Source: Companilactobacillus formosensis (GTDB lineage: Bacteria; Bacillota; Bacilli; Lactobacillales; Lactobacillaceae). From it: a stretch of 64,000 nucleotides of DNA. A program made the translations under genes and the position numbers. The DNA lies in the NCBI RefSeq assembly GCF_005405305.1, contig NZ_BJDU01000006.1, positions 1-64,000 of the forward strand. Reading direction: 5' to 3'. Of the stretch, positions 1,959-43,527 are shown piece by piece; the first letter of the stretch is position 1, and every line of letters begins with the position of its first letter. The notes under the pieces were generated by a model. The model was not told the origin of the DNA and searched no databases. It saw only the letters and a program-made list of their open reading frames with translations.

Positions 1959-3116
1959 TTATTCTGACGTTTGATCTCTTGTAAAGATTGTATAGTTTTG
2001 ATTTGTAGTCCCACTGTCAAATGAGAATCCTCTAGCTTCATTCAATGTGTTTAATCTAGTTTCTTCATTATTCAGTTGTTCTTCAGAAAGGCCTAGTTGC
2101 TTTCTTAATTTATTTGATACTCGACGCAATTCTTTAGTTGGAGCCACTTCATATGAAGAACCATTAATCATTGAGCCATATCCTTGAACGTGATCAGAAT
2201 CAATGTTCTTGGCAGCTCCACGATAATTAAAGAAGACTGACTGCATATCACTAAAACTCAAATTAGTAGTCATTGAACTAGAAATACTATTCAAAACTTT
2301 TTGATAGTGCGTAAACGTATTGGCACTAGCAGCACTCTTAATAATCGCCGTGATAACTTGACGCTGTCTCTTTTGACGGCCATAGTCACCTTCAGGATCC
2401 TCATAACGCATTCTTGAGTAATCTAGTGCTTGCTTACCATTCAGATGCATCTTACCCTTCTTGAAATGAGATTCTTTCTCACCAGTATCACCGTAAGAGA
2501 AACTAAATGGTACATTAACATCTACTCCACCAACAGCGTTAACAATCTGCTTAAGTGAGTTAAAATCTACTTTAACATAGTAGTCAATTGGCACATTCAA
2601 CAATTTCTCAGTTGTTGCCACCGCACTACCTTCATTGCCGATGTTGTAAGCTGAATTGATTTTTTGAATTTTTTTGGTGTTATTAGTACTGCTCTTCCAA
2701 ATTTGAGCCATTGTATCACGTGGAACGGAAACCATTGTCGTCTTGTTAGTTTTAGGATTAACCGTTACAACGATCATCGTATCCGAATTCCCTCGATAAT
2801 TAGTTTCTGTATCTCTAATTCCGTTATCAGTCGTATCAACTCCCAATAAAAGAATTGAGATTGGCTTTTTATCATTGATTCTTGTTGAAACTTTTTTACC
2901 ATCAATAGCTTTATAAGTCTTACCCAATGAATTTTGAGCTTGAGCATAAAGTCTAAATCCATAAGCACCCATGACAAAAATCATAACTAAGAATACTAAT
3001 CCTAGAATCTTAACAAATGGACGTTTAATCTTTCCACCGTTATTAGAAGCTAAGGCACTGTTACGAGATCTTTGCCGATGCTGCCTAGACATATTGTCGT
3101 TCTTATTGTTATCCAT
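1959..3116 (-). CDS. LCP (LytR-CpsA-Psr) family cell-wall glycopolymer transferase
   Basis: 385-residue membrane-anchored enzyme of the family that moves teichoic acid or other anionic polymers from a lipid carrier onto peptidoglycan outside the cell. A short basic cytoplasmic N-terminus (residues 1-34) is followed by one membrane helix (about 35-55) and the LCP catalytic domain from about residue 85 to 255. Typical blocks are visible: LLLGVDTT, RGNSDTMIVVTVNP, SVPRDT, and DYSRMRYEDPEGDYGRQKRQ with its arginines for pyrophosphate binding. The Asn/Thr-rich C-terminus has no clear domain. The start ATG has GGAG eight bases upstream. It is divergent from the APC permease at 3391. The exact glycopolymer is unknown. 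Confidence 0.92.
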   Translation of the reverse strand: MDNNKNDNMSRQHRQRSRNSALASNNGGKIKRPFVKILGLVFLVMIFVMGAYGFRLYAQAQNSLGKTYKAIDGKKVSTRINDKKPISILLLGVDTTDNGIRDTETNYRGNSDTMIVVTVNPKTNKTTMVSVPRDTMAQIWKSSTNNTKKIQKINSAYNIGNEGSAVATTEKLLNVPIDYYVKVDFNSLKQIVNAVGGVDVNVPFSFSYGDTGEKESHFKKGKMHLNGKQALDYSRMRYEDPEGDYGRQKRQRQVITAIIKSAASANTFTHYQKVLNSISSSMTTNLSFSDMQSVFFNYRGAAKNIDSDHVQGYGSMINGSSYEVAPTKELRRVSNKLRKQLGLSEEQLNNEETRLNTLNEARGFSFDSGTTNQNYTIFTRDQTSE

Positions 3117-3360
3117 AATAAACTCCGATTAATTTGCTATCTACCTTAAAAACAAATTCTCTCTATATTATAGTAGATAGGATGCAATTATACAGCTTAA
3201 TTCAATTGAATTAAAATTAAATTTTAAATAGCCGCATTCCTAAATTATAATTTTTTGACACAATCTGTCAATTTTACAAAAAATATTTTTCTTATTTATT
3301 AATTAAAACATAAGCGAATATCTATCTCATTATTTAGAACTTTTTCTTGTATATTTCATG

Positions 3361-3382
3361 TATAATTTCTTCCGTAGGAGGA
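3361..3382 (+). promoter_or_regulatory. -10 element and Shine-Dalgarno of the APC permease
   Basis: TATAAT at 3361-3366 is followed closely by TAGGAGGA (3375-3382) and the ATG at 3391. No good -35 lies at 16-18 bases. The transcript would have a very short leader. Confidence 0.5.
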
Positions 3383-3390
3383 TTTGAATA

Positions 3391-4842
3391 ATGTCAGATG
3401 CAAGTAATGCAAAGACGTTTAGATGGTGGAACATTGCCTTGTTAGGTTTTACCACCGTTTGGGGTCTTAATAATGTTATCAACAACTTTGCTAATCAAGG
3501 TTTAGCCGTTGTAACATCATGGATTTTAATCATGGTTCTTTATTTTGTTCCATACACTTTAATGGTGGGACAATTGGGATCCGCTTTTCAAGAGGCTGGT
3601 GGAGGAGTTAGTTCTTGGGTTAAAGCTCTTTCTAATAATAAACTGGCCTACTTTGCTGCCTGGACTTATTGGGTAGTGCACGTTCCATATCTTGCTCAAA
3701 AACCACAAATCATCATGGTTAGTTTGAGTTGGTTATTCAAGGGAAATGGTTCTTTCATCAAAACTGCTTCACCACTAGTTGTACAAGGTGCAAGTTTAAT
3801 TATCTTCTTGCTCTTCGTCTGGTTAGCTAGTAAAGGAACTGCTACCTTGAATAATCTTGGTAGTATTGCTGGTATTGCAATGTTTGCTATGTCAATGCTA
3901 TTTATCATCTTAGGTGTCAGTGCTCCATTTATCACTCATGTCCAAATCGCTACACCAAACATGACTGATATCCACACTTATATTCCTAAGTTTGATTTCC
4001 AATACTTCACGACGATCTCTATGTTAGTCTTCGCCGTTGGTGGTTCGGAAAAAATTTCACCTTATGTTAATAAAACTAAAAATGCTTCTAAGGAGTTCCC
4101 ACTCGGTATGATCGTCTTAGCCGTGATGGTAGCTGTTTCTGCAATCTTAGGATCATTTGCTATTGGTATGATCGTTAACTCAAATCACATTCCAGCTGAT
4201 CTGATGGCTAACGGTGCTTACCAAGCTTTCCAATTTTTAGGTAATAGTTTCCACGTTGGTAACTTATTCGTTTGGGCTTTTGCCATTACCAACACAATAG
4301 CTTCAGCTGCTGCTCTAGCTATTTCCATCGATGCACCATTACGTATGCTTTTAGGTGATGCTGATAAGAGATTCATCCCTAAAGGACTTTTGAAGAAAAA
4401 CAAACGTGGCGTTGCCATCAATGGTTACAAGTTAACAGCAATTTTGGTTTCTATCTTAATCATCGTTCCTGCCCTTGGAATCAACGGAATGAACGATTTA
4501 TACAACTGGCTATTGAACTTAAACTCAATCGTTATGCCTATGCGTTACCTTTGGGTATTCTTAGCCTACATGATGCTTTGTCGTCAACTAGATAAATTTA
4601 AGTCAGACTACATGTTTGTTAAGAACAAATACGTCGGCTTTGGTTTCGGACTATGGGCTTTCTTCTTAACAGCCTTTGCCTGCATTCTAGGTATGGTGCC
4701 TAAGATGAATATGGCAACTGATCCATCATCATGGTGGTTCCAACTAGCACTTAATATCATCACACCAATTGCCTTGATTGCTTTGGGATTGATTTTACCT
4801 GCTATTGCTAAACGTACTAATTCTGAATTAGATGAAATATAG
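3391..4842 (+). CDS. APC superfamily amino acid permease
   Basis: 483-residue integral membrane protein with about 12 predicted helices, starting WWNIALLGFTTVWGLNNVINNF, the glycine-containing first helix of APC transporters. It has no periplasmic or ATPase domain, so it is a secondary transporter taking up or exchanging an amino acid. The C-terminal part resembles glutamate/GABA-type carriers used in acid resistance, but no decarboxylase gene is next to it and substrate cannot be read from sequence. The start is well supported by AGGAGG nine bases upstream. It is a single-gene unit: divergent from the LCP gene and closed by a strong terminator at 4872. Confidence 0.85.
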   Translation: MSDASNAKTFRWWNIALLGFTTVWGLNNVINNFANQGLAVVTSWILIMVLYFVPYTLMVGQLGSAFQEAGGGVSSWVKALSNNKLAYFAAWTYWVVHVPYLAQKPQIIMVSLSWLFKGNGSFIKTASPLVVQGASLIIFLLFVWLASKGTATLNNLGSIAGIAMFAMSMLFIILGVSAPFITHVQIATPNMTDIHTYIPKFDFQYFTTISMLVFAVGGSEKISPYVNKTKNASKEFPLGMIVLAVMVAVSAILGSFAIGMIVNSNHIPADLMANGAYQAFQFLGNSFHVGNLFVWAFAITNTIASAAALAISIDAPLRMLLGDADKRFIPKGLLKKNKRGVAINGYKLTAILVSILIIVPALGINGMNDLYNWLLNLNSIVMPMRYLWVFLAYMMLCRQLDKFKSDYMFVKNKYVGFGFGLWAFFLTAFACILGMVPKMNMATDPSSWWFQLALNIITPIALIALGLILPAIAKRTNSELDEI

Positions 4843-4871
4843 TTAATATCTACTGCACGGATATTAAACTA

Positions 4872-4906
4872 AAAGATCCTCTAGAAATCAATCTAGAGGG
4901 TCTTTT
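4872..4906. terminator. bidirectional terminator (permease / PBP1A)
   Basis: The arms AAGATCCTCTAGA and TCTAGAGGGTCTT enclose a 6-base loop, with T-run on the plus side and A-run at the other end. It serves both convergent genes. Confidence 0.9.
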
Positions 4907-7573
4907 TTAGTTTGTAGTAGAAGTTGAGTTGGAATTGCCATTACTATCGATTTTTAGATCCGGAACATTCCCACCGTAACTTCTAATTTCATTCATGATA
5001 TCGATCAGTTTTTGCTTTTGATCTTCTTTATCAGAATCATTATTCTTGTAGGCATCTTTTACTTTTTGAAGCTGCGAATTGTACTGTGGCATTAATTTAT
5101 CCACCATGTTCTGACGTTTCTTCTCACGTTGTTCCTCAATAGCCTCTTTTTCAGATTCAAACTGGGCTACCTTCTTATTATCTTTAGCAGCTTGGAACAT
5201 CGCTTGACTCAAGTTCAAGTCCTTTTGAAGCTGTAAAATCTGCTTGTTAAAGTCATTCTTTGCACTTTGACGTTTAACATTACTATTCAAATAACGAATC
5301 TTTTGTAGCTCATCTAATTTCTTATTGTACTGTGATTCCTTAATGATTGGATTGTCGTTGTATTTATCAATTGCCTTTTGAACTTTTCTTTCTCGTTTGA
5401 ATTCTTCTTTCTTCGTCAAATGATAAATGATTCGATAATCAAGATTGTACAAACGATTTTCATTCTTATTAGCTTGATTAGTATTGTATTTAGAAAAATC
5501 ATTATCGATGATATCTTGAATGCTTGGTTTTTCAGCCTTAGTGTTAACTGACAAGTTACTACCACTGACTGTTACAGTACTTGGTTTCTTGAAATCAACA
5601 TCCTTTTGCTTCATTTCATCAACTAAGTACTCGCCAACCGATTTAAAAGCTTTCATAGCAAGCTGACGTTCAGAAGCATTCAGACTATCTTCTTTTTTAT
5701 CATCACCAGTCCAATTAGCGATTGTAAAGTCTGGTGTCATTCCAACGAAATATGAATCATAATTATCATCAGTTGAACCAGTTTTACCAGCCGTGTACTT
5801 GTAATTATCTAAAGCAGCATCTTTCCCTAGCCCATCACTAATAACTGACTGCATCGTATTGATCATCATATAACTAGCATTCTTAGTGTAGACGTCTTTT
5901 TTCATATGAGTATTTTGATAAATATAGCGATCATTATCATTATCGTAAATACTAGAAATATTGCTAGGATGAATGAATTGCCCACCACGTGAAAATGAAC
6001 TATACGCTGAAGCCATTTCGGTTGTTGTTACACCATTTCTAAAGGAACCAATTGCTAATCGTGGATCCAATTTTTGGGTTGGCGACAATCGAGCAAATTC
6101 CATTTTGACCATATCATTATAGTAAGTGCCATTAGTATCTTGAGCCGCTAACTTATAAGCGACGGTATTGATTGAATTTTCCAATGCATGACGAACCGTT
6201 GTACTACCAGTATAGCCACTGTACCAGTTATGAACGACAGGATTACCTACAGTCGAATCAATGACAGTACTTTGTGGTAAATATCCTCTTTCAAAAGCTG
6301 GTGCATAAGCCACGATTGGTTTAGCAGTTGAACCTGGTTGATGATACCCATTTATCGTTCGATTAAATTGATCCCCATCAGTAGTTCGACCACCAACTAC
6401 CGCTATAACGTCGCCAGTTTTGTTATCCACTACCGTACTAGAAACTTGTGGAGTCAACTTCCCATTGGCTGTTCGGCCAGTATAAGGAGAATAAACTTGC
6501 TTGATTAAGTCTTCAACTTTATTTTGTACGTCCATATCAATCGTTGTCTGAATCGTGTAACCACCATCCATTAATTGACCGTGAGCACGTTCATATTCTT
6601 GTTGATACTTCGTATCATATGCCTGGCGATCAGCTGCATTTTTAAAATCATAACGCATCGTAAATCCAGATGATTTCATTAATTCTTCTGTCGCTCCGTA
6701 GACTGCGTAACTCAGAGCATAATTATTAGAAACATCATTATCATATTTCTTTTCGTTTAGTTTCAATCCTAAAGGTTTCTTACGAGCTGCTTGATAAGTC
6801 TTTTTTGAAATCAAACCTCTTTGATTAAAGATATACAAAATCATATTCCGACGTTTCTTTGTTCGCTCCGGATATTGAACAGGATCATAATAGACTGGAT
6901 TGTTGGGAATACCGACTAGCATAGCTATTTTATCAATCGATAAATCATTTTGATCTTCCGAGAAATAGTAATCAGACGCCGCACTAAATCCATATGAACC
7001 GTGACCCATGTAGACATTGTTAATATAAAACTCCAAAATCTGCGACTTAGTAAATTTCTTCTCTAATTGTTGTGCAATAACCATTTCTTTGAGCTTACGC
7101 GTTAGGTTTTGGGATTGATCTTGTAAGATAACATTCTTAACTAATTGTTGTGTCAGTGTTGAACCACCTTCAGTCCGGCGATGCAAAATAGTTGAACCGA
7201 CTGAACGCATAATAGCGTAAAGATCGACCCCATGATGAATATAGAAACGTTGATCTTCAACGTCCACCAAGCCTTTACTTATCTTAGTGTTGATCTTACT
7301 AATTGGTGTGTAATCTGAACTTGATTGAGCCAATTTTTTAATAACCTTACCGTTACGATCATATATAACGGTCGAATTACGGGGATGAAAATCAGATTTT
7401 TTCAAGCCTTGGCTATAAGAATAACCGTCAGCAATCGTATTTTTAATTTCATACCCATATTTCCACCAAAAAGCTCCGACACTTAAAACGATTAATAAAA
7501 CTAATGTCAAAAGAATCCAGGGCCATTTTTTTCTTTTCTTGATTAATTTATGTTCCATTTTTTTCTTACGCAT
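4907..7573 (-). CDS. pbp1A: class A penicillin-binding protein 1A (glycosyltransferase/transpeptidase)
   Basis: 888-residue bifunctional peptidoglycan synthase. A lysine-rich cytoplasmic tail and one membrane helix (about 18-40) precede the GT51 domain, with EDQRFYIHHGVD carrying the catalytic glutamate, then EGGSTLTQQLVKN and the RKLKEMVIAQQLEKKF block. The transpeptidase has the SxxK motif in GSTAKP, the SxN motif SIN in ALENSINTVAYKL, and KTGS. After the catalytic part comes an unusual charged tail of about 190 residues (from about residue 690) rich in Lys, Gln, Asn and Glu, probably a coiled coil, ending in a Ser/Thr/Asn stretch. The ATG at 7573 has AGGGG placed over the stop of the upstream gene, so the two are probably translationally coupled. 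Confidence 0.95.
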   Translation of the reverse strand: MRKKKMEHKLIKKRKKWPWILLTLVLLIVLSVGAFWWKYGYEIKNTIADGYSYSQGLKKSDFHPRNSTVIYDRNGKVIKKLAQSSSDYTPISKINTKISKGLVDVEDQRFYIHHGVDLYAIMRSVGSTILHRRTEGGSTLTQQLVKNVILQDQSQNLTRKLKEMVIAQQLEKKFTKSQILEFYINNVYMGHGSYGFSAASDYYFSEDQNDLSIDKIAMLVGIPNNPVYYDPVQYPERTKKRRNMILYIFNQRGLISKKTYQAARKKPLGLKLNEKKYDNDVSNNYALSYAVYGATEELMKSSGFTMRYDFKNAADRQAYDTKYQQEYERAHGQLMDGGYTIQTTIDMDVQNKVEDLIKQVYSPYTGRTANGKLTPQVSSTVVDNKTGDVIAVVGGRTTDGDQFNRTINGYHQPGSTAKPIVAYAPAFERGYLPQSTVIDSTVGNPVVHNWYSGYTGSTTVRHALENSINTVAYKLAAQDTNGTYYNDMVKMEFARLSPTQKLDPRLAIGSFRNGVTTTEMASAYSSFSRGGQFIHPSNISSIYDNDNDRYIYQNTHMKKDVYTKNASYMMINTMQSVISDGLGKDAALDNYKYTAGKTGSTDDNYDSYFVGMTPDFTIANWTGDDKKEDSLNASERQLAMKAFKSVGEYLVDEMKQKDVDFKKPSTVTVSGSNLSVNTKAEKPSIQDIIDNDFSKYNTNQANKNENRLYNLDYRIIYHLTKKEEFKRERKVQKAIDKYNDNPIIKESQYNKKLDELQKIRYLNSNVKRQSAKNDFNKQILQLQKDLNLSQAMFQAAKDNKKVAQFESEKEAIEEQREKKRQNMVDKLMPQYNSQLQKVKDAYKNNDSDKEDQKQKLIDIMNEIRSYGGNVPDLKIDSNGNSNSTSTTN

Positions 7574-8877: not shown

Positions 8878-8950
8878 AATTTTCCCCAAATATCTAGTTC
8901 ATCTTGTTATTATATATAGTAAATTATCCTGCAAATAAAGGGTGAACATT

Positions 8951-9877
8951 TTGAAAAAATTAAACAAAACATATATAAAATGGATCGTTATTCTTCTGCT
9001 ATTAATCGCCATTATTTTCTCATACGCCCTTAACTTAGGAAAAATCAAAGACAAAACAATCAATGGCATCTCAAGTCTAACCATCCCGTTTTCTTTGATC
9101 GTTAATCCTAACAATATTGACGAAGACATTGCACCTAAGGCTATCTCGTTGAAAGCTGACTTAAGCAATTCCAAAACGCAGGCTTTGAATCTAATCAGCT
9201 CCATCAATGATGACTATGATAATACAAAACAGCTGTCATTTTTATCCAATGACCAAGAAGAATCTTTATTAAAGAAGGTTCATCAGAAGCCACACCGTTA
9301 TATCGGTAAAATGACCTTGTTAAATTTCGGTAAAGATAGCCATGGAAAGTACATTACCGTTAGTTGTAATCGTTATGACGATACGAAGAACATCGTTAGT
9401 TACCGTTACCGACTTTATTACAAAAACGACACAATCACTTCAGCCAAATATCTCAATACTAAGTCTAACAAATATCCACCAAAATACGTCTTTAAAGATA
9501 TTGAGCTAGGCAAGTTTGGTACGACCGAAGCAGACGCCTTCATGCAACGATTAAAGACAGCTATCATCAATTCTAATTTAACTGACACCAACGCTAACGA
9601 GCCTGGTAACTTCAACCAGATCTCTATCAATTTAGGTCTGAATCCCGATAAAAGCAATGTTGGTTTGTATACTTTAGCTAAAAATTCTAATTCACGAGTC
9701 AGCAATTCCAGTATCGTCGGTTATCAAGTTTCCGATGTCCCTCGTTATACTAGAATTTATATTAAACAGTTAAATAAAGACAATAGTTATTACTATACGT
9801 TAACTTTCAGTCGTAATAGTGGACGTTTCATCAACTTACAACGCGGCATTATTTCGACCGATTCTAAAAATCAATAA
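8951..9877 (+). CDS. membrane-anchored secreted protein of unknown function
   Basis: 308-residue protein with an N-terminal helix (about residues 9-27) that is a signal anchor or uncleaved signal peptide, followed by about 280 mostly polar residues rich in Asn, Ser, Tyr and Lys. No known motif is seen. The best start is the TTG at 8951 because AAGGGTGA lies five bases upstream; a GTG at 8942 has no ribosome site. It is divergent from the anchored protein at 7582-8877 with only about 70 bases between, so the two may share a control region. Both look like surface proteins. A converging terminator at 9877 closes it. Confidence 0.75.
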   Translation: MKKLNKTYIKWIVILLLLIAIIFSYALNLGKIKDKTINGISSLTIPFSLIVNPNNIDEDIAPKAISLKADLSNSKTQALNLISSINDDYDNTKQLSFLSNDQEESLLKKVHQKPHRYIGKMTLLNFGKDSHGKYITVSCNRYDDTKNIVSYRYRLYYKNDTITSAKYLNTKSNKYPPKYVFKDIELGKFGTTEADAFMQRLKTAIINSNLTDTNANEPGNFNQISINLGLNPDKSNVGLYTLAKNSNSRVSNSSIVGYQVSDVPRYTRIYIKQLNKDNSYYYTLTFSRNSGRFINLQRGIISTDSKNQ

Positions 9878-9918
9878 AATAAGCCCGATCAGAATTTGTT
9901 CTGACCAGGCTTATTTTA
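9877..9918. terminator. bidirectional terminator
   Basis: Long hairpin: AAAATAAGCC pairs with GGCTTATTTT and TCAGAA with TTCTGA. It separates the plus-strand surface protein from the converging Rrf2 gene, whose stop lies in its edge. Confidence 0.9.
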
Positions 9919-33099: not shown

Positions 33100-33136
33100 G
33101 TCATTGGGATGTAAAAATCCTAATGGCTTTTTTTTT
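33100..33136 (+). terminator. terminator after mnmG
   Basis: GTCATTGGGAT and ATCCTAATGGC pair around GTAAA and are followed by nine T. Confidence 0.9.
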
Positions 33137-33318
33137 GCACAATTTTAGCGCTATAGCGTTATGAACAACTATAAATTAAATTTTGACAATGTGTATTGTA
33201 CCGATATTTATTTTTCTGAAATAAATGAACTTTCTGAATGAAAATCCTTTGTTAGTAGTGTTCGTTCAAATGAATAAAAAAATATTAATTTTAAGAATTC
33301 ACTTGATTTTATATTTTA

Positions 33319-33366
33319 CGAACGATAAAAAATAAATTATTGACATTGTTCGTGTTTTAGTATAAT
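33319..33366 (+). promoter_or_regulatory. promoter with paired PurBox-like operators before the permease-ade operon
   Basis: CGAAC (33319-33323, in TTTTACGAACGAT) and inverted GTTCG (33348-33352, in ATTGTTCGTGTTT) are separated by 24 bases. This is the spacing between cores of two PurBoxes in Bacillus pur promoters (consensus AWWWCCGAACWWT, recalled from the literature). The second box matches 11 of 13 positions and the first 10 of 13. TTGACA (33340-33345) and TATAAT (33361-33366) overlap the second box; the spacer is only 15 bases. A weaker third core lies at 33260-33264. From 33137 to 33318 nothing else is recognised apart from the palindrome GCGCTATAGC at 33149. Confidence 0.6.
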
Positions 33367-33404
33367 TTGTTGTGTATCAGATCAAATAGAAAGGTTGAAC
33401 AATT

Positions 33405-34241
33405 TTGAAAAGATCTACCACTTTTCTTTTATTGCCGGGTTTATTAATTATTATTATTTTATTGATATATCCAGTGCTAAGAATGTTTATTCCAACTTTT
33501 ACTAGTGGGAATTCTTTGTTTGAAAATTATCAATTATTCTTTTCAAGCAGTAATAACTTAAAAGTCATTTACCGAACATTAATGATTGCTGTGATTACAA
33601 CGTTAGTAACTTTAGGTTTGGGATTGCCGACTGCTTATTGGATTTCGCGCTTGAATGGAAATTGGCGAAAACTAGTTAGTATTATCGTTCTTTTTCCAAT
33701 ATTAACTAATGCAGTCGTGAGAAACTTTGCTTGGATAATGATTCTTGGTAAGAACGGAGTGATCAATAATTTCCTAATAAAGCTTCACTTGATCAATGCA
33801 CCATTAACGCTACTTTATACGAATCTTGCCATCATTATTGGAGCGGTCTATTTATTTCTACCAATCATGATTACCTCATTAGTCAGTTCTTTTTCACAAT
33901 TGAACGGTGAGATAGAAGAGGCTGCTGAAGTCTTGGGAGCTAGGCCGATAGTTGTCTTTTTTAAAGTTATCTTGCCACAAGTATCTTTGGGAATATTTAC
34001 TGGTTCGATTTTGGTTTTTGTAGGAGCACTAACTGCTTATACCACGCCACAATTATTAGGTGGAAATAAAAACATGGTTCTAGCTACTTTATTGCAACAA
34101 CAATCGATCACTCTAGGCAACTGGACTAGTGCCAGCGTGATAGCAATTGTTTTGACGGTTATCGCTGTTGTAACGATGTTTGTTTTGAATAAGGTTTCTA
34201 AGATGCTAGATCGGAGGAATAATCTTGAAATCAAAAATTAG
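33405..34241 (+). CDS. ABC transporter permease (PotB-like)
   Basis: 278 residues with about six membrane helices and the inner-membrane EAA motif EEAAEVLGARPIVVFFKVILPQV (about residues 170-192) that contacts the ATPase. It belongs to the spermidine/putrescine/iron/thiamine permease family (PotB/PotH-like). TTG start with AAAGG upstream. First gene of a five-gene operon (permease, permease, ATPase, binding lipoprotein, adenine deaminase). The order differs from canonical potABCD, and the deaminase and PurBox-like promoter point to a purine-related substrate (inference). Confidence 0.85.
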   Translation: MKRSTTFLLLPGLLIIIILLIYPVLRMFIPTFTSGNSLFENYQLFFSSSNNLKVIYRTLMIAVITTLVTLGLGLPTAYWISRLNGNWRKLVSIIVLFPILTNAVVRNFAWIMILGKNGVINNFLIKLHLINAPLTLLYTNLAIIIGAVYLFLPIMITSLVSSFSQLNGEIEEAAEVLGARPIVVFFKVILPQVSLGIFTGSILVFVGALTAYTTPQLLGGNKNMVLATLLQQQSITLGNWTSASVIAIVLTVIAVVTMFVLNKVSKMLDRRNNLEIKN

Positions 34242-35007
34242 ATTTTCATCAGTGATAGGTTTCATTGTTTTGCTGATATTAATTTTGCCACTGATGATAG
34301 TCATAATTACTTCTTTTGGAACGGAGACAGCAATATCTTTTCCAATTAAAGGTTTCACACTGAATTGGTATCACAATGTATTTCAACAACCAGATTTCGT
34401 TGATGGAATGAAAATGAGTTTTATAGTTGCCATTTTGGCGGCGGCAATTGCCTTGTTAATTGGGATCCCGGCCGTTTATGCATTAACCCATTTTCAGATT
34501 CATCATAAGAGTTGGTTCCAAAATATCTTCTTGAGTCCAGCTTTAATACCAGAAATTGTTATTGGTTTTGCACTTTATCAAACACTAGTGATTAGTTTTG
34601 GTTTACCACTGTTTTTGAGCTTATTAATTGGACATTGCTTATTGTGCTTGCCATACGTCATTCGTTTATTGACAGCAGGGATGATGGATTTCGACAATCG
34701 AATTGAAGAAGCTGCTTGGATGGTTGGGTATAACAAAATCGTGACATTTTTCAAAGTCGTTATTCCTAATATTAAACAGAGTATTTTGGCAGCGTTTATC
34801 CTCTCATTTATTACTTCTTTCAACAATATTCCAATTACTTTATTCATGAATGGACCATCGTTGAACATGCTACCAACTTCCATTTTGAATTATTTGGAAA
34901 ACAATTATGATCCAACTGTATCAGCAGTATCAGTTATTTTAATGCTCATCACAGCCGCTTTGATGATGATTGCTGAGAAGTATTTGGGATTAAACAAACT
35001 AACTTAG
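34225..35007 (+). CDS. ABC transporter permease (PotC-like)
   Basis: 260 residues, about six membrane helices, with EAA motif EEAAWMVGYNKIVTFFKVVIPNI (about residues 160-182). It is the second inner-membrane subunit, PotC/PotI-like. The start is TTG with CGGAGG eight bases upstream; the gene overlaps the first permease by 17 bases. Expected to form a heterodimer with the preceding permease. Confidence 0.85.
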   Translation: MKSKIRFSSVIGFIVLLILILPLMIVIITSFGTETAISFPIKGFTLNWYHNVFQQPDFVDGMKMSFIVAILAAAIALLIGIPAVYALTHFQIHHKSWFQNIFLSPALIPEIVIGFALYQTLVISFGLPLFLSLLIGHCLLCLPYVIRLLTAGMMDFDNRIEEAAWMVGYNKIVTFFKVVIPNIKQSILAAFILSFITSFNNIPITLFMNGPSLNMLPTSILNYLENNYDPTVSAVSVILMLITAALMMIAEKYLGLNKLT

Positions 35008-35017
35008 GAGACATATT

Positions 35018-36019
35018 TTGGCACAAATAAAAATAGAAGATCTAACTCTTTCGTATCAAAAAAATAAACAAATTCTAAAAGATTTGTCGCTGGAAATTAA
35101 TGATGGTGAATTGTTATCGATTTTAGGACCTAGTGGTTGCGGAAAAACGACCATGTTAAGGCTGATATCGGGACTGTTACCGATTCAAGGTGGTTCTATT
35201 AAAGTTTCTGGAAGAGACATTTCCAAAGTACCAGTTTACAAGCGAAATTTCGGAATGGTTTTCCAAAGTTATGCTTTATTTCCTCATATGACAATTTTTC
35301 AAAATGTAGCCTTTGGATTAAAGCGTAAAAAATTATCTAAAGAAATAATTTCAGAAAAAACTGTCAGTATTTTGAAAACGACCGGCTTGATAGATTTGAA
35401 AGATAGAATGCCAAGTGAATTATCTGGTGGACAGCAACAACGAGTTTCTTTAGCCCGTGCTTTAGCTATTAATCCTGATGTTTTATTGTTAGATGAACCT
35501 TTGAGTAATCTGGATGCTAAGTTGCGAATAGAAATGCGTGAAGAAATTAGTCGCTTACAAAAAAAGATGAAAATGACAACAATTTTTGTAACTCATGATC
35601 AAGAAGAGTGCTTCGCCATTTCAGATCGTGTGGCGGTAATGAATAAAGGCAAGATTGAACAACTTGATACGCCTGAACGAATTTATCAACATCCAAAGAC
35701 ACGTTTTGTAGCTGAATTTATTGGTTATGACAACTTTATCTCTAAGGAGTGGGCTACGGAACATAGTTGGAGTTATAACGATACGAATTCAGGTAAGTAT
35801 CTGACAATTAGACCCGAGAACATCAAAGTGGGTACGGGAAACAATACTTTAAAGGGCAAGATAACAGCCCGTAATTTTTTAGGTGATTGTTATCAATATA
35901 TCGTTGAGACAGAATTAGGTCGAATGAAAGTTGATACTGACAATAGGGACTATCAAATAGGCTCTGAACTAACTTTATATTTTGATAAACAATCACTAAT
36001 TGAATTAGAGGATAAATAA
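35018..36019 (+). CDS. ABC transporter ATP-binding protein (PotA-like)
   Basis: 333 residues. Walker A is GPSGCGKTT (about residue 39), the Q-loop lies in FGMVFQSYALFPHM, the signature is LSGGQQQRVSLARALA and Walker B is VLLLDEPLSNLD, followed by the H-loop THDQEE. The C-terminal regulatory TOBE domain starts around residue 245 (TIRPENIKVG). It resembles PotA of polyamine importers, but the same subfamily carries many substrates. TTG start after TAGGAG, 10 bases after the preceding permease. Confidence 0.88.
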   Translation: MAQIKIEDLTLSYQKNKQILKDLSLEINDGELLSILGPSGCGKTTMLRLISGLLPIQGGSIKVSGRDISKVPVYKRNFGMVFQSYALFPHMTIFQNVAFGLKRKKLSKEIISEKTVSILKTTGLIDLKDRMPSELSGGQQQRVSLARALAINPDVLLLDEPLSNLDAKLRIEMREEISRLQKKMKMTTIFVTHDQEECFAISDRVAVMNKGKIEQLDTPERIYQHPKTRFVAEFIGYDNFISKEWATEHSWSYNDTNSGKYLTIRPENIKVGTGNNTLKGKITARNFLGDCYQYIVETELGRMKVDTDNRDYQIGSELTLYFDKQSLIELEDK

Positions 36020-36036
36020 AATAAATAGGTGGAAAT

Positions 36037-37098
36037 ATGAAAAAATTTGCAAAGATTTTAACTATCGTTACAACGCTTTTGATTGCATTGACAGTTGCTG
36101 GATGTGGAAAAACTGCCAATAAACAATTAACTGTTTCAACTTTTGGTTTAGCAACTAAACAAATGACTAGAGATGTTTTTAATCCATTTGCTAAAGCTAA
36201 CAATTTAACAGTTAAGAGTCAGTTCGGGGACAGTTCTTCTAGATTCACGCAAATCTCACACAATCCAAATTCTGGCGTTGATGTCATTGAATTGGCTCAA
36301 AATAATGCCGTTGCTGGTAGTAACAAGAATTTATTCAAGAAACTTGATTTCAGTAAGATTAAGAATTTCAAATATCTTTCAAAAGATCAACAAAAATTAG
36401 CTAAGGAAACTAATAGTGTTCCTTATACAGTCAATAGTATCGGGATTATTTACAATCCTAAAAAGATTGGCAAAATCACTTCCTGGGATCAACTTTGGGA
36501 TAAGAAATTAGAAGGTAGAATTGCTATTCCTGATATTGCAACAACATTTGGTCCAGCGATGGTTTATATTGCTAATCAACATGCTCAAAATCTTCAAGCA
36601 AGTTCCAGTTTTGTAGACAACGGAAAGGTTGATGAAAAACAAGCCTTCGCACAATTGAAAGCTTTGAAACCGAATGTAGTAAAGACTTATGCTAAATCTT
36701 CTGATCTAGCCAATATGTTTAAATCCGGTGAAATCGATGCTGCCGTTGTAGGTGACTTTGCTGTTGGGATGATCAAGAATGCTGCTCCTGATGTTGAATA
36801 CATGGTTCCAGAATCAGGCACATATGCTAACTATGATACAGTTTCAATTTTGAAGAATAGTAAAAATGAAGATGCAGCATACAAGTACATCGATTACCGT
36901 ATCAGCAAAGCTTCTCAAGCTAAAGTTGCTGAATCAAATTCATTAAATAATGCTCCAGTTAATTCATCAGTAACATTGAAAGATCCACAGTATATGACTT
37001 ATGGCGATACTGCTAAACGCGCTAAGATGATTGATTTCAATTATGTTAACAAAGAATTGCCATCATGGATCAAACAATGGAATCAAACTATGAACTAA
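36037..37098 (+). CDS. substrate-binding lipoprotein (PotD/thiamine-iron family) of the ABC importer
   Basis: 353 residues. The lipoprotein signal has lipobox VAGC (cysteine at about residue 23). The mature part is a two-lobe binding protein: LTVSTFGLATKQMTRDVFNPFAKANN, SVPYTVNSIGIIYNPKKIGKITSWDQLWD, EGRIAIPDIATTFGP, FKSGEIDAAVVGDFAVGMI. These blocks match the PotD/AfuA-type group (solute-binding cluster D). The ligand pocket cannot be read reliably. Its place between the ATPase and an adenine deaminase suggests a nucleobase-like or other purine-derived ligand rather than a polyamine. Confidence 0.85.
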   Translation: MKKFAKILTIVTTLLIALTVAGCGKTANKQLTVSTFGLATKQMTRDVFNPFAKANNLTVKSQFGDSSSRFTQISHNPNSGVDVIELAQNNAVAGSNKNLFKKLDFSKIKNFKYLSKDQQKLAKETNSVPYTVNSIGIIYNPKKIGKITSWDQLWDKKLEGRIAIPDIATTFGPAMVYIANQHAQNLQASSSFVDNGKVDEKQAFAQLKALKPNVVKTYAKSSDLANMFKSGEIDAAVVGDFAVGMIKNAAPDVEYMVPESGTYANYDTVSILKNSKNEDAAYKYIDYRISKASQAKVAESNSLNNAPVNSSVTLKDPQYMTYGDTAKRAKMIDFNYVNKELPSWIKQWNQTMN

Positions 37099-37112
37099 AA
37101 AGGAAGTTGAAA

Positions 37113-38789
37113 ATGCAAGTAGATACGTTGATTGAAAACGGACTAGTTTTTAATACTTTTTCACAAAAATTTGAAAGAAAAGATATTGCAATTGAAAACG
37201 GGAAAATCTTAATGGTTGGAGTTAATTTACAATTTGACGCTAAAAAAATCGTCGATGCGCATGATCGTTATATTATCCCTGGTTTGATCGATTCGCATAT
37301 GCATATAGAAAGTTCCATGACTGATCCCGCTCATTTTGGAAATGAAGCCGTTAAATTTGGAACAACGACGGTCATCGCCGATGCACATGAGATTTCAAAT
37401 GTGGCTGGAATCAAAGGTTTAAAAGATTTCATGGCTCAAAAGAGCATTATTGATGTCTTTTATGCGCTACCTTCTTCAGTTCCTTCAACTAGAACTGAAA
37501 TGGAAACTACTGGCGGCGTGATTGGACTAAAAGAGACGGAAGAATTACTTAAAGATCCTAGAATCGTTTGTTTAGGTGAAGCGATGAACTTTAAGGGAAT
37601 AGTTTCACAACCAGAATCTTTAATTAGACAGCTTATTAAGCTATGTAAAGAACTCAGACCAACGATGCCTCTAGAGGGACACTGTCCTCAATATTCTGGC
37701 TTAGACCTAGCTAAATTTGCTGCTAGTGGAATTACATCTGATCATACGTATCAAACGCCAACTAGTATTGTTGAACGAATCAACAATGGCATGTTTATCC
37801 AGTTCCAAAAGAAATCAATGTCAAAAGAAAACATGCAGACGATTATTGATCACAATTTCTATGAATATGCAGCTTTTGTAACTGATGATGTGATGGCTGA
37901 CGATTTGGTTAATGGACATTTGAACGTTATCGTTAAAGAAGCCATTGATATGGGAATGCCAGCAGAAAAAGCTATTTACATGGCAACTTACACTCCTGCT
38001 AGAAGGATGTCCTTGAATGACCGTGGTGCAATTGCTCCAGGTAGAGTAGCTGACTTGATCTTTTTAGATGATCCACAACGATTTAATATTCAAGAAGTTT
38101 ATAAATCCGGTCAATTAAGCACTGATATAACGCCGTTACAACCAGAATTTCCGGCATCATTGAAGAACTCAGTTAAGGTTAAAAAAATAACGACGGCTGA
38201 TTTAGAATTATCAAGTGACAAAACTAGTGTTTTAGCTAATGTAATTGAAATAAACCAACAAGGTACTTTTACAAAACACGTTCAAGAAAGATTAGCAGTT
38301 AAGAATGGTTTAGTAGATTGGCAAAGTGCAGGTTTGTCGTTACTGATGGTTCAAGAACGTTACGGTAAAAATGGCAATATTAGTTTTGCTTTGGTAAAAA
38401 ATGCTTTGAATAAATCTGGAGCTATTGGAACAACTTGGGCTCACGATCATCACAACTTAATGGTTATGGGGACTGACTTAGAATCAATGGTCGTAGCCCA
38501 ACACAAATTGATGGATGAGCAAGGTGGCTACGTTGTAGTAAAACATGGTCAATTAGTTGCGAATGCGCTATTAAATATTGGTGGAATCATTAGTTCAAAA
38601 CCAGTAGCTGAATTAGCAGAGGAGATTAAACAAGTACGTACAGAAATGCAAAACTTGGGATATCACAATTTCAACGAAATAATGTCCTTCTCGACAATCT
38701 CACTTTTAGTTTCTCCAGAATTAAAGATTTCTGATGTAGGGATGTTTGATGTTAAATCACAACGTAAGGTCCCACTCTTTGAAGAATAA
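37113..38789 (+). CDS. ade: adenine deaminase
   Basis: 558-residue amidohydrolase that converts adenine to hypoxanthine and ammonia for purine salvage. Metal ligands are seen in GLIDSHMHIESS, ADAHEISNV and EGHCPQYSG, and in the conserved TDDV and TYTPARRMSL segments. The C-terminal AHDHHNLMVMG block is typical of bacterial Ade. The ATG at 37113 follows AAGGAAGTTG; an ATG 48 bases earlier inside the lipoprotein gene is rejected. It closes the importer operon, 14 bases after the binding protein, and a terminator follows. Confidence 0.95.
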   Translation: MQVDTLIENGLVFNTFSQKFERKDIAIENGKILMVGVNLQFDAKKIVDAHDRYIIPGLIDSHMHIESSMTDPAHFGNEAVKFGTTTVIADAHEISNVAGIKGLKDFMAQKSIIDVFYALPSSVPSTRTEMETTGGVIGLKETEELLKDPRIVCLGEAMNFKGIVSQPESLIRQLIKLCKELRPTMPLEGHCPQYSGLDLAKFAASGITSDHTYQTPTSIVERINNGMFIQFQKKSMSKENMQTIIDHNFYEYAAFVTDDVMADDLVNGHLNVIVKEAIDMGMPAEKAIYMATYTPARRMSLNDRGAIAPGRVADLIFLDDPQRFNIQEVYKSGQLSTDITPLQPEFPASLKNSVKVKKITTADLELSSDKTSVLANVIEINQQGTFTKHVQERLAVKNGLVDWQSAGLSLLMVQERYGKNGNISFALVKNALNKSGAIGTTWAHDHHNLMVMGTDLESMVVAQHKLMDEQGGYVVVKHGQLVANALLNIGGIISSKPVAELAEEIKQVRTEMQNLGYHNFNEIMSFSTISLLVSPELKISDVGMFDVKSQRKVPLFEE

Positions 38790-38881: not shown

Positions 38882-39051
38882 GATAGGCGTTATAACGTGA
38901 AAAACATAGCAGGATTGATCATCCATTTTTAAATAAGCATTTAGCAAACTACACAAAACAAGGAAATTATCGAGTGATAATCAAAAACGTAACGACGTTA
39001 TGATTAATGAAAAGACTTTAAAATAATGCCAATATGGATTCATTTAATTGA

Positions 39052-42375: not shown

Positions 42376-42969
42376 TTAGTCGTGATAAATGCCTTGAGCC
42401 CATTTCTTATTTTCACTGTCGAAGAAATTAGGGTTGTCAGTTTGATCAGGATTTGGTGTAGCAATCTTGTTGATTCTATCAATCAAATCTTTATTGTGAT
42501 CGTCTGGCTTGTACTTAGCATTTAAGTAATAATCAACGATATCGAAAACAAAATCACGTCCTAAAACAATTCCGGCAAAGGCCAAAACGTTAGCATTCAA
42601 TTGTTCCTTGGCATAAACAGCTTGAGCAATATTACCAACGATTGCAGCACGGATACCGTCATTTTTATCTGCAGCAGTACCGATACCAATACCAGTACCA
42701 CAAAGAACGATAGCACAGTCAGCACGGCCGTCGTTTACTGCATCAGCAGCACGTTTACCATAAATTGGGTAGTGAGTTCTTGTATGATCGTAAGTTCCGA
42801 CATCTAAGACCCGATAGCCTTCAGACTTTAAGTGATCAGAAATCAACATCTTTAGATCAGTTACGATGTGATCATTAGCTAAAGCAACAATAGTGTGCTT
42901 ATCAATTTTTGGATCAACGTACTCAGGTTGAGCTCTATCTTCATCATAGTCATATTTATCAGTAGCCAT
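42376..42969 (-). CDS. lacB: galactose-6-phosphate isomerase subunit LacB (RpiB/LacB family)
   Basis: 197 residues. The core [85 protein letters not shown] matches LacB of the RpiB/LacAB fold, with the active-site cysteine in VLCGTGIG. It normally works as a heteromer with LacA, converting galactose-6-phosphate to tagatose-6-phosphate. An N-terminal extension of about 24 residues precedes the usual start. It lies three bases after lacA. No tagatose kinase or aldolase gene is nearby, so the true substrate may differ. Confidence 0.85.
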
Positions 42970-42971
42970 AA

Positions 42972-43400
42972 TTAAATCATCTCCTCAAGCATATTTAGAC
43001 GTACTTGGTGTCTACCAGCAGCATAATCAGTCTTTAAGTAACGGTTAATAATTGATAAAGCTAATTGTGGTCCGACAATTCCAGAACCAATGGCAATTGC
43101 TTTAGCACCATTATGTAAAGCTGTCATATGGCCAGTACGTTCTTCCTCAACGTTGGCTGTAACCATACCTTTAACTTTATCGGAAGCCATAGTACTACCG
43201 ACACCATAAGCATCAAACATAATTGCTTTTTTAATACCGCTTTCAAGAACCTTATGAGTAACTGCCAATGAGGATTCAATAAAGTCCTTAGCAGGAGTAG
43301 GTGTAAGATCGATTACATCGTAGCCTTGCTTAGTCAAATTATTCTTAACGAATTCTTTTAGTTCAAATCCGTCTTTATCAGAACCTAAAACTACTTGCAT
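42972..43400 (-). CDS. lacA: galactose-6-phosphate isomerase subunit LacA (RpiB/LacA family)
   Basis: 142 residues. [33 protein letters not shown] is the typical LacA start; the position of the LacB active cysteine is replaced by [16 protein letters not shown], as in LacA. Pairs with LacB in the tagatose-6-phosphate pathway. The ATG at 43400 follows GAGGAAG, and a longer frame from 43442 is rejected. An operator-like palindrome and a divergent Rrf2 regulator lie about 130 bases upstream. A minus-strand promoter candidate is TTGTCT, 16 bases, TATGTT around 43485-43512. Confidence 0.87.
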
Positions 43401-43527
43401 ATTTACTTCCTCTTTTCCACGAACTATTATTGTTATGTGCATTAGAAGTGTTCATTTGACCCCTCAGAAACACTTTCTAATCAACATATTAGATGATAAA
43501 ATTAAGACAAATGTTTAATCAAATCAT

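Follow-up and report, generated by a model that had tools for sequence, protein, structure and literature searches.

The window analysed here, 64,000 nucleotides of Companilactobacillus formosensis DNA (contig NZ_BJDU01000006.1, positions 1 to 64,000), contains an operon of five + strand genes (33405-38789) that encodes an ATP-binding cassette (ABC) importer resembling polyamine transporters, followed by an adenine-deaminase-like amidohydrolase. From the conserved context of this operon we consider it likely that the importer takes up a purine, as a nucleoside or a nucleobase, and the cargo is probably of adenine or adenosine type or a modified form of either. As read from the sequence, the genes overlap or are closely spaced, in the order permease B, permease C, ATPase A, lipoprotein D, deaminase (B-C-A-D-deaminase; Table 1).

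Importer subunits and their polyamine-type relatives

A preliminary description of this DNA had placed two permeases, an ATPase, a lipoprotein and a deaminase-like gene in one operon, and both direct reading and Pfam bear this out; a PotABCD-type gene set (two permeases, a TOBE ATPase and a binding protein) is present. An automatic spermidine/putrescine label had also been expected, and the subunits are indeed PotA-, PotB-, PotC- and PotD-like by NCBIfam, although the polyamine pocket is mostly replaced. All four fall short of the polyamine equivalog cut-offs, with 164 against 348 bits for PotB, 132 against 326 for PotC, 323 against 482 for PotA and 57 against 582 for PotD.

We take PotD W229 and D257 to have pocket roles by equivalence to PotF W244 and D278, and the pocket comparison covered these two together with D168, E171 and W255. 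D168, E171 and W255 contact spermidine according to the portion of PMC8666671 used here. Four of the positions were replaced in 29/29 aligned lipoproteins: D168 by I, F, V or L, E171 by T, W229 by G, A, M, L, S, V or Q, and W255 by N, V or S.

The predicted structure of the window lipoprotein (mean predicted local distance difference test score, pLDDT, 90.7) matched best to 4edp from Clostridium perfringens (Foldseek E 4.6e-37, 45% identity), which scores 499 bits with the 29-sequence lipoprotein profile. Next came Salmonella stm0429, a phosphonate-type protein, and then polyamine-, opine-, gamma-aminobutyrate-, iron- and pyridoxal-phosphate-type proteins; with cargo types so varied, the fold alone leaves the cargo undecided. 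In Pfam the lipoprotein matched SBP_bac_8 and three other SBP_bac families only, with no Bmp-family match, and no second lipoprotein match was found in its own genome at E values up to 1.

One alternative is that the operon encodes a polyamine importer, a chance neighbour of the deaminase that was drawn into the PurR regulon. The NCBIfam likeness and the polyamine and opine proteins among the top structural matches would fit this explanation, but the scores of all four subunits under the polyamine cut-offs, the four replaced pocket residues and the linkage of the cluster to deaminases and nucleoside enzymes (see below) make it very improbable. Judged by its sequence, the system is no polyamine importer.

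PurR-type boxes upstream of the operon

In Bacillus subtilis, PurBoxes are 14 bp long, with a CGAA core and a spacer of 16 or 17 bp, as given in the part of PMC8789054 used here. The upstream region of the operon follows this rule: two inverted 14-bp boxes with CGAA cores are separated by 16 bp, which corresponds to a gap of 24 bases between CGAAC (33319-33323) and GTTCG (33348-33352), and the earlier claim of PurR-like spacing holds. Box 2 shares the last bases of the -35-like hexamer and extends into the gap that follows. This position over the promoter is as expected of a repressor site, and PurR binding is predicted. A terminator-like hairpin lies between the upstream mnmG-like gene (so named by eye) and the operon, which suggests that the operon probably has its own promoter. 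A third, weaker box precedes box 1 by 58 bases, measured between their starts, and additional CGAAC words occur upstream in relatives too (L054-L056 and L062).

A single gene of the same genome passes the PurR cut-off (360 bits, with 258.7 required), and boxes like those of the operon precede purE (found by PF00731) and a guanosine monophosphate (GMP)-reductase-like gene (by eye). Two of its five xanthine/uracil-family permease genes are directly preceded by a box (L159, L160), and a third (L158) has one before its leading gene. At L158 a purine-type deaminase-like open reading frame (ORF; 2709-3767, by eye) stands ahead of the permease and behind the PurBox, forming another transporter-deaminase pair.

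For comparison across genomes, the PurBox score matrix was made by hand from the consensus AWWWCCGAACWWT and from upstream words viewed beforehand, and for this reason neither matrix nor threshold is independent of the data. As controls, that matrix was applied to other windows of the same loci, to shuffles and to spacing, and words were simply counted. In the 300 bases ahead of the first permease gene, a box with a score of 16 or more was present in 38 of the 40 other Lactobacillales genomes with the importer, spanning 20 of 21 genera, whereas 100 dinucleotide-preserving shuffles gave a mean of 1.87 and a maximum of 6 of 40. The preliminary description had named conservation in relatives as a check on the boxes, and on this count they are conserved. 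An inverted partner box scoring at least 9 was found in 8/38 genomes at spacer 16 and in 8/38 at spacer 17, and counts at the remaining 26 spacers in the range 8-35 ran from 0 to 2; mean partner scores were 3.7 and 3.3, respectively, and 0.63 or less elsewhere in that range.

When all 67 loci were scanned, near-copies included, boxes were detected in 49 of 52 Lactobacillales loci (L059, L101 and L103 had none at threshold 16) and in 1 of 15 loci from other Bacillota, six of which (L137-L139, L141, L142 and L144) were scanned upstream of D, their first gene, rather than B. Other windows of the same loci gave an expectation of 1.4 of 67. Plain counting yielded 84 CGAAC/GTTCG words in 40 x 300 bases, against 5 to 7 occurrences of each of four control words; one conserved word at -21, which scores under the threshold, accounts for 15 of the 84, in 15 loci. 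The bare pattern ACGAAC-N(10-30)-GTTCG was not enriched in the C. formosensis genome, with 13 matches versus 17 for the reversed control, and among its 8 distinct sites there the gap was 24 or 25 (spacer 16 or 17) in only two, that of the operon and one before the GMP-reductase-like gene. Only spacing and conservation set the operon boxes apart from chance.

Linkage of the importer to purine-type enzymes

Gene order was compared at 40 Lactobacillales loci beyond the window's own. The five-gene order proposed earlier stood for the importer, as B-C-A-D was present at 40/40, and in part for the deaminase, which was found at 37/40 and was absent from three. Next in order was a second, COG0402-type deaminase (38/40), missing only from the two Lactobacillaceae loci and kept by all three loci that are without the first (3/3). 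Eight relatives from Companilactobacillus, Schleiferilactobacillus and Lactobacillus, retained from 11 loci after removal of L053 (which duplicates L064), L061 (at a contig end) and L063 (a 35-residue match without an operon), have B-C-A-D-deaminase without the second deaminase. Every order genome in which the importer-type deaminase is unbroken (38/38) also has the lipoprotein.

The lipoprotein was detected in 16 of 398 Bacillota genomes (E up to 1e-30, own included). Fourteen other Bacillota genomes contributed 15 loci, each with B, C, A and D, accompanied by a deaminase-like gene at 14 (that of L143, lost to the overlap rule in the linkage count, was taken from a separate scan), a nucleoside phosphorylase-like gene at 8, a nucleoside hydrolase-like gene at 5 and a COG0402 deaminase at 1. 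The importer-linked enzyme type occurred in 32 genomes of the class outside the order, of which 5 were already in the sample; five of the other 27, picked by hand, all had the arrangement D-hydrolase-B-C-A-deaminase (5/5). In Schleiferilactobacillus (L057), a RihC-type hydrolase gene lies 423 bases upstream of the cluster. With genes of nucleoside hydrolase and phosphorylase type in relatives, a nucleoside is a better candidate for the cargo than a base.

Seven auxiliary deaminase, hydrolase and phosphorylase proteins were checked, and all were under the cut-offs of their nearest models. Those nearest to the second deaminase were N-ethylammeline chlorohydrolase and the 5'-deoxyadenosine, 8-oxoguanine, 5'-methylthioadenosine/S-adenosylhomocysteine (MTA/SAH) and guanine deaminases; its best solved relative was 3lnp, which has no function in its name, followed by 4f0r, an MTA/SAH deaminase.

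A separate clade of adenine-deaminase-like enzymes

The preliminary description had called the amidohydrolase an adenine deaminase, a label that comparison with the TIGR01178 family did not support. The enzyme scores 372.1 bits against a cut-off of 472.5, and three relatives of the same clade are similarly low (368.7-397.4 bits); among four non-cluster relatives three score 640-665 and the fourth (L174) 399, below the cut-off too. Deaminase matches in 295 order genomes form two groups, one of 38 genomes at 49-100% identity and the others at 29-35%. A tree was built from 58 of 69 deaminase rows, after 11 near-copies had been dropped and with the long rows L143 and L146 placed unsurely. The 42 importer-linked rows, minus L143 and L146 as the two most distant, form one group on a long branch with 100/100 support; support for the non-cluster group is 83/84 only.

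Two residues separate these groups. Thr212, next to a metal-site His, and Gln232 are found in 59/59 cluster-linked rows, as opposed to Glu and Arg in 20/20 non-cluster rows, and metal-site residues H62, H64, E156, H211, D258 and D259 are kept in all 79 rows counted, a set without the deaminases of L141 and L145 and with L173 set aside as broken. Gln232 aligns to Arg260 of Atu4426 (3nqb), using a numbering offset of 3 deduced from His94. In published models, as presented in the portion of PMC12133300 used here, Atu4426 Arg260 and YerA Arg252 contact the substrate; on the equivalence drawn there, the position of YerA Arg252 would be Gln in the importer-linked clade. The corresponding portions of PMC12133300 and PMC13296781 report YerA to be active on N6-methyladenine and N6-methyladenosine, and on adenosine per one report cited, and E. 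coli AdeC to be active on adenine and inactive on N6-methyladenine; the true substrate of YerA is described as debated (PMC12133300).

Its own clade, its low score and the Thr/Gln change all set the enzyme apart from canonical adenine deaminases, as far as its sequence can tell. Because Glu and Arg are changed to Thr and Gln and the specificities of AdeC and YerA differ, a third substrate specificity is plausible for the Thr/Gln clade. A tentative extension, which we regard as possible and somewhat doubtful, is that importer and deaminase form a dedicated salvage route, distributed through Bacillota, for a modified or unusual purine (nucleoside or base) that is neither adenine nor N6-methyladenine.

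Mutual exclusion of the two kinds of deaminase was considered and is not shown by their distribution. Both are present in 7/38 genomes, with about 10 expected under independence if the other kind occurs in 80/295 genomes, a figure obtained at an E cut-off of 1e-60 that may miss some. In two Companilactobacillus genomes without the importer-type enzyme (L174, L175), a Glu/Arg-kind Ade lies beside an AzgA-like permease and an adenosine-deaminase-like gene, these neighbours being named by eye.

Plain adenine could be the cargo if the enzyme were a diverged adenine deaminase and the pair replaced the Ade and purine permease of sister species such as these two. The absence of a second full-length Ade from the C. 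formosensis genome agrees with such a replacement, as does the retention of the metal-site residues. We nevertheless find this explanation rather unlikely in view of the separate clade and its long branch, a score short of the TIGR01178 cut-off compared with 640-665 for three of the four non-cluster relatives (L174 being the fourth), the invariant Thr and Gln, the genomes in which both kinds of deaminase are found together, and the COG0402 deaminase kept by every order-sample importer that is without this enzyme.

Proposed pathway and points against it

Import is the usual direction for lipoprotein-dependent ABC systems. In the pathway we propose, the lipoprotein would capture a purine nucleoside or base outside the cell, and the two permeases and the ATPase would bring it in. 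The cargo could then be turned into a salvageable base by nucleosidases, which occur in relatives, and by one or two deaminases; the intracellular amidohydrolase would strip an amino (or alkylamino) group, with hypoxanthine or a related base as the product that feeds salvage. PurR, acting via the two inverted, promoter-overlapping PurBoxes, would repress the operon when purines are plentiful and be released at high phosphoribosyl pyrophosphate (PRPP). PurR binding, repression, import, the purine cargo and deamination are all inferred, the steps from capture to deamination from conserved context.

Several observations weigh against a purine importer under PurR control. The lipoprotein is patchy, found in 41/295 Lactobacillales genomes (E up to 1e-30, own included) and in 14/36 genomes of the genus (E up to 1e-20), and five Companilactobacillus relatives carry orphan lipoproteins without an importer. 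The window lipoprotein retains Asp at the position of PotD D257 (Asp in 4/29 lipoproteins, Asn in 25/29). The -35/-10 spacing of the operon promoter is 15; among the xanthine/uracil permeases, L156 has a box only just inside its ORF start and L157 is without a comparable box. PurBoxes are not enriched outside Lactobacillales (1/15 loci). Control by a purine riboswitch was considered and rejected, since neither the window nor 19 other loci gave a match at the Rfam gathering score. With so few boxes elsewhere and no riboswitch, evidence for PurR is confined to one order. The purine linkage suggested earlier is upheld across Bacillota by purine-type enzymes, and by PurR-type sites in Lactobacillales only.

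The cargo could also be something other than a purine, namely another nitrogen heterocycle or a ureide (a pyrimidine nucleoside, for example) that is hydrolysed by the amidohydrolases. The hydrolases and phosphorylases are nearest to RihC and uridine phosphorylase models, under the cut-offs, so that pyrimidine nucleosides may be the cargo in those lineages; the distant locus L143 adjoins an M20 amidohydrolase gene over its subfamily cut-off, and the amidohydrolase superfamily is versatile. With PurR-type sites across Lactobacillales and a second deaminase whose nearest models are those named above, with MTA/SAH deaminase 4f0r as its second-best solved relative, we rate a non-purine cargo as improbable.

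Surroundings of the operon and related loci

Features of the region are listed in Table 1. The ORF of the amidohydrolase is open from 37065, and the ATG at 37113 was preferred as its start. The window lipoprotein is 99% identical to the copy of its congener Companilactobacillus futsaii (L060), in which a second lipoprotein gene (8935-9885) sits 3' of the deaminase. Of this second protein the window retains a match to about 23 of the final residues only (65% identical), and most of the gene therefore appears to be deleted. Further downstream, two adjacent RpiB/LacAB-like sugar-phosphate isomerase ORFs occupy 42376-43442 on the - strand (by eye only).

Table 1. Coordinates, in the window, of the operon and adjoining features
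Feature	Position	Strand	Remarks
Terminator-like hairpin with T run, 3' of upstream mnmG-like gene	33100-33127	+	1 found, shuffles mean 0.0
Third, weaker CGAAC box (GTTCG 33260-33264)	33256-33269	-	score 14.5, below threshold 16
PurBox 1, TTTTACGAACGATA	33314-33327	+	contains CGAAC 33319-33323
-35-like hexamer TTGACA	33340-33345	+	missed by promoter scan, which requires spacer 16-18
PurBox 2, CATTGTTCGTGTTT on +	33344-33357	-	contains GTTCG 33348-33352; within core promoter
-10-like hexamer TATAAT	33361-33366	+	15 bases after -35-like hexamer
ABC permease, PotB-like	33405-34241	+	TTG start, BPD_transp_1
ABC permease, PotC-like	34225-35007	+	TTG start, BPD_transp_1
ABC ATPase, PotA-like	35018-36019	+	ABC_tran and TOBE_2 (Pfam)
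Substrate-binding lipoprotein D	36037-37098	+	SBP_bac_8; closest solved structure 4edp (C. perfringens)
Adenine-deaminase-like amidohydrolase, importer-linked Thr/Gln clade	37113-38789	+	Amidohydro_1 and Adenine_deam_C
Remnant, 3' end of second substrate-binding protein gene present in C. futsaii (L060)	38899-38967	+	

The orphan lipoprotein genes are located at L150 5989-7074, L151 5887-6855, L152 5992-7041, L153 5914-7020 and L154 5992-6969 (genomes G715, G692, G703, G705 and G710, respectively). They adjoin mnmG at the equivalent place and are 33-46% identical to the window lipoprotein, with B, C, A and the deaminase absent from these 13-kb loci; the orphan binding protein is diverging fast. 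A UvrA-like gene (about 843-866 codons, by eye) stands between the operon or orphan lipoprotein and an oxidoreductase gene in L064 (= L053), L150, L152, L153 and L154, and is missing from that position in the window and L151.

In genome G049 the importer-type deaminase is broken and the lipoprotein has no match. The locus (L173, about 4071-6490) is a decaying cluster with broken deaminase pieces and a split COG0402-type deaminase, and no importer genes were seen by eye in the 12.6-kb stretch. A MATE-type efflux gene (by eye) lies directly 3' of the deaminase in two genomes of the class, at L205 (4478-5881) and L209 (4473-5831), and a similar gene some 4-6 kb further on in L206 and L207. At L083 (4876-5888) and L136 (4831-5881) the ATPase gene was matched as two overlapping pieces, possibly through a frameshift or an assembly error.

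Significance and comparison with known systems

In lactic acid bacteria as in other Bacillota, the sequence invites the labels spermidine/putrescine transport and adenine deaminase, and each of them is probably inaccurate in its details. If a purine is the cargo, a PurR-controlled ABC route for purines would be added to these bacteria, their metabolic models would change, and 4edp would become a solved structure whose cargo comes from a short candidate list. Were the cargo an unusual purine, the polyamine-type ABC family would gain a new class of cargo and the adenine-deaminase family a new class of substrate, whose signature would be the double change from Glu/Arg to Thr/Gln. The component families of the cluster are all known. 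In the open-licence literature searched, no purine cargo for this ABC family and no Thr/Gln deaminase clade was found, and the portion of a paper on the PurR regulon of lactic acid bacteria used here names purB, guaB and prsA as targets and no such importer (PMC3616900); there is a weak case that the cargo class of the importer and the clade are new.

PotABCD, PotFGHI and the wider polyamine-opine-phosphonate ABC family have two permeases, a TOBE-type ATPase and the binding-protein fold in common with the window importer, which differs from PotABCD and PotFGHI in its scores under the polyamine cut-offs, its replaced pocket, its PurR-type sites and the purine-type enzymes alongside. The C. perfringens protein 4edp belongs to the same family as the window lipoprotein, and no cargo is named in its title. 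BmpA-NupABC-type systems are nucleoside ABC importers with a Bmp-family lipoprotein; the cargo class proposed here is the same, and the window importer instead combines an SBP_bac_8 lipoprotein with BPD_transp_1 permeases. The pairing of a transporter with a deaminase is shared with the Ade and AzgA-like permease pairs of sister Companilactobacillus species, in which a secondary permease accompanies a Glu/Arg enzyme.

Among deaminases, the TIGR01178 enzymes (Atu4426, E. coli AdeC) share the Adenine_deam_C domain and the metal-site residues with the window enzyme, which differs from them in having Thr for Glu and Gln for the substrate-contacting Arg, in its separate clade and in its score below the cut-off. 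YerA/Bh0637, an N6-methyladenine/N6-methyladenosine deaminase, is likewise a divergent COG1001 branch with a preference unlike that of AdeC. In the docking model described in the portion of PMC12133300 used here, YerA Arg252 contacts the substrate, and on the equivalence given above the window enzyme would have Gln there.

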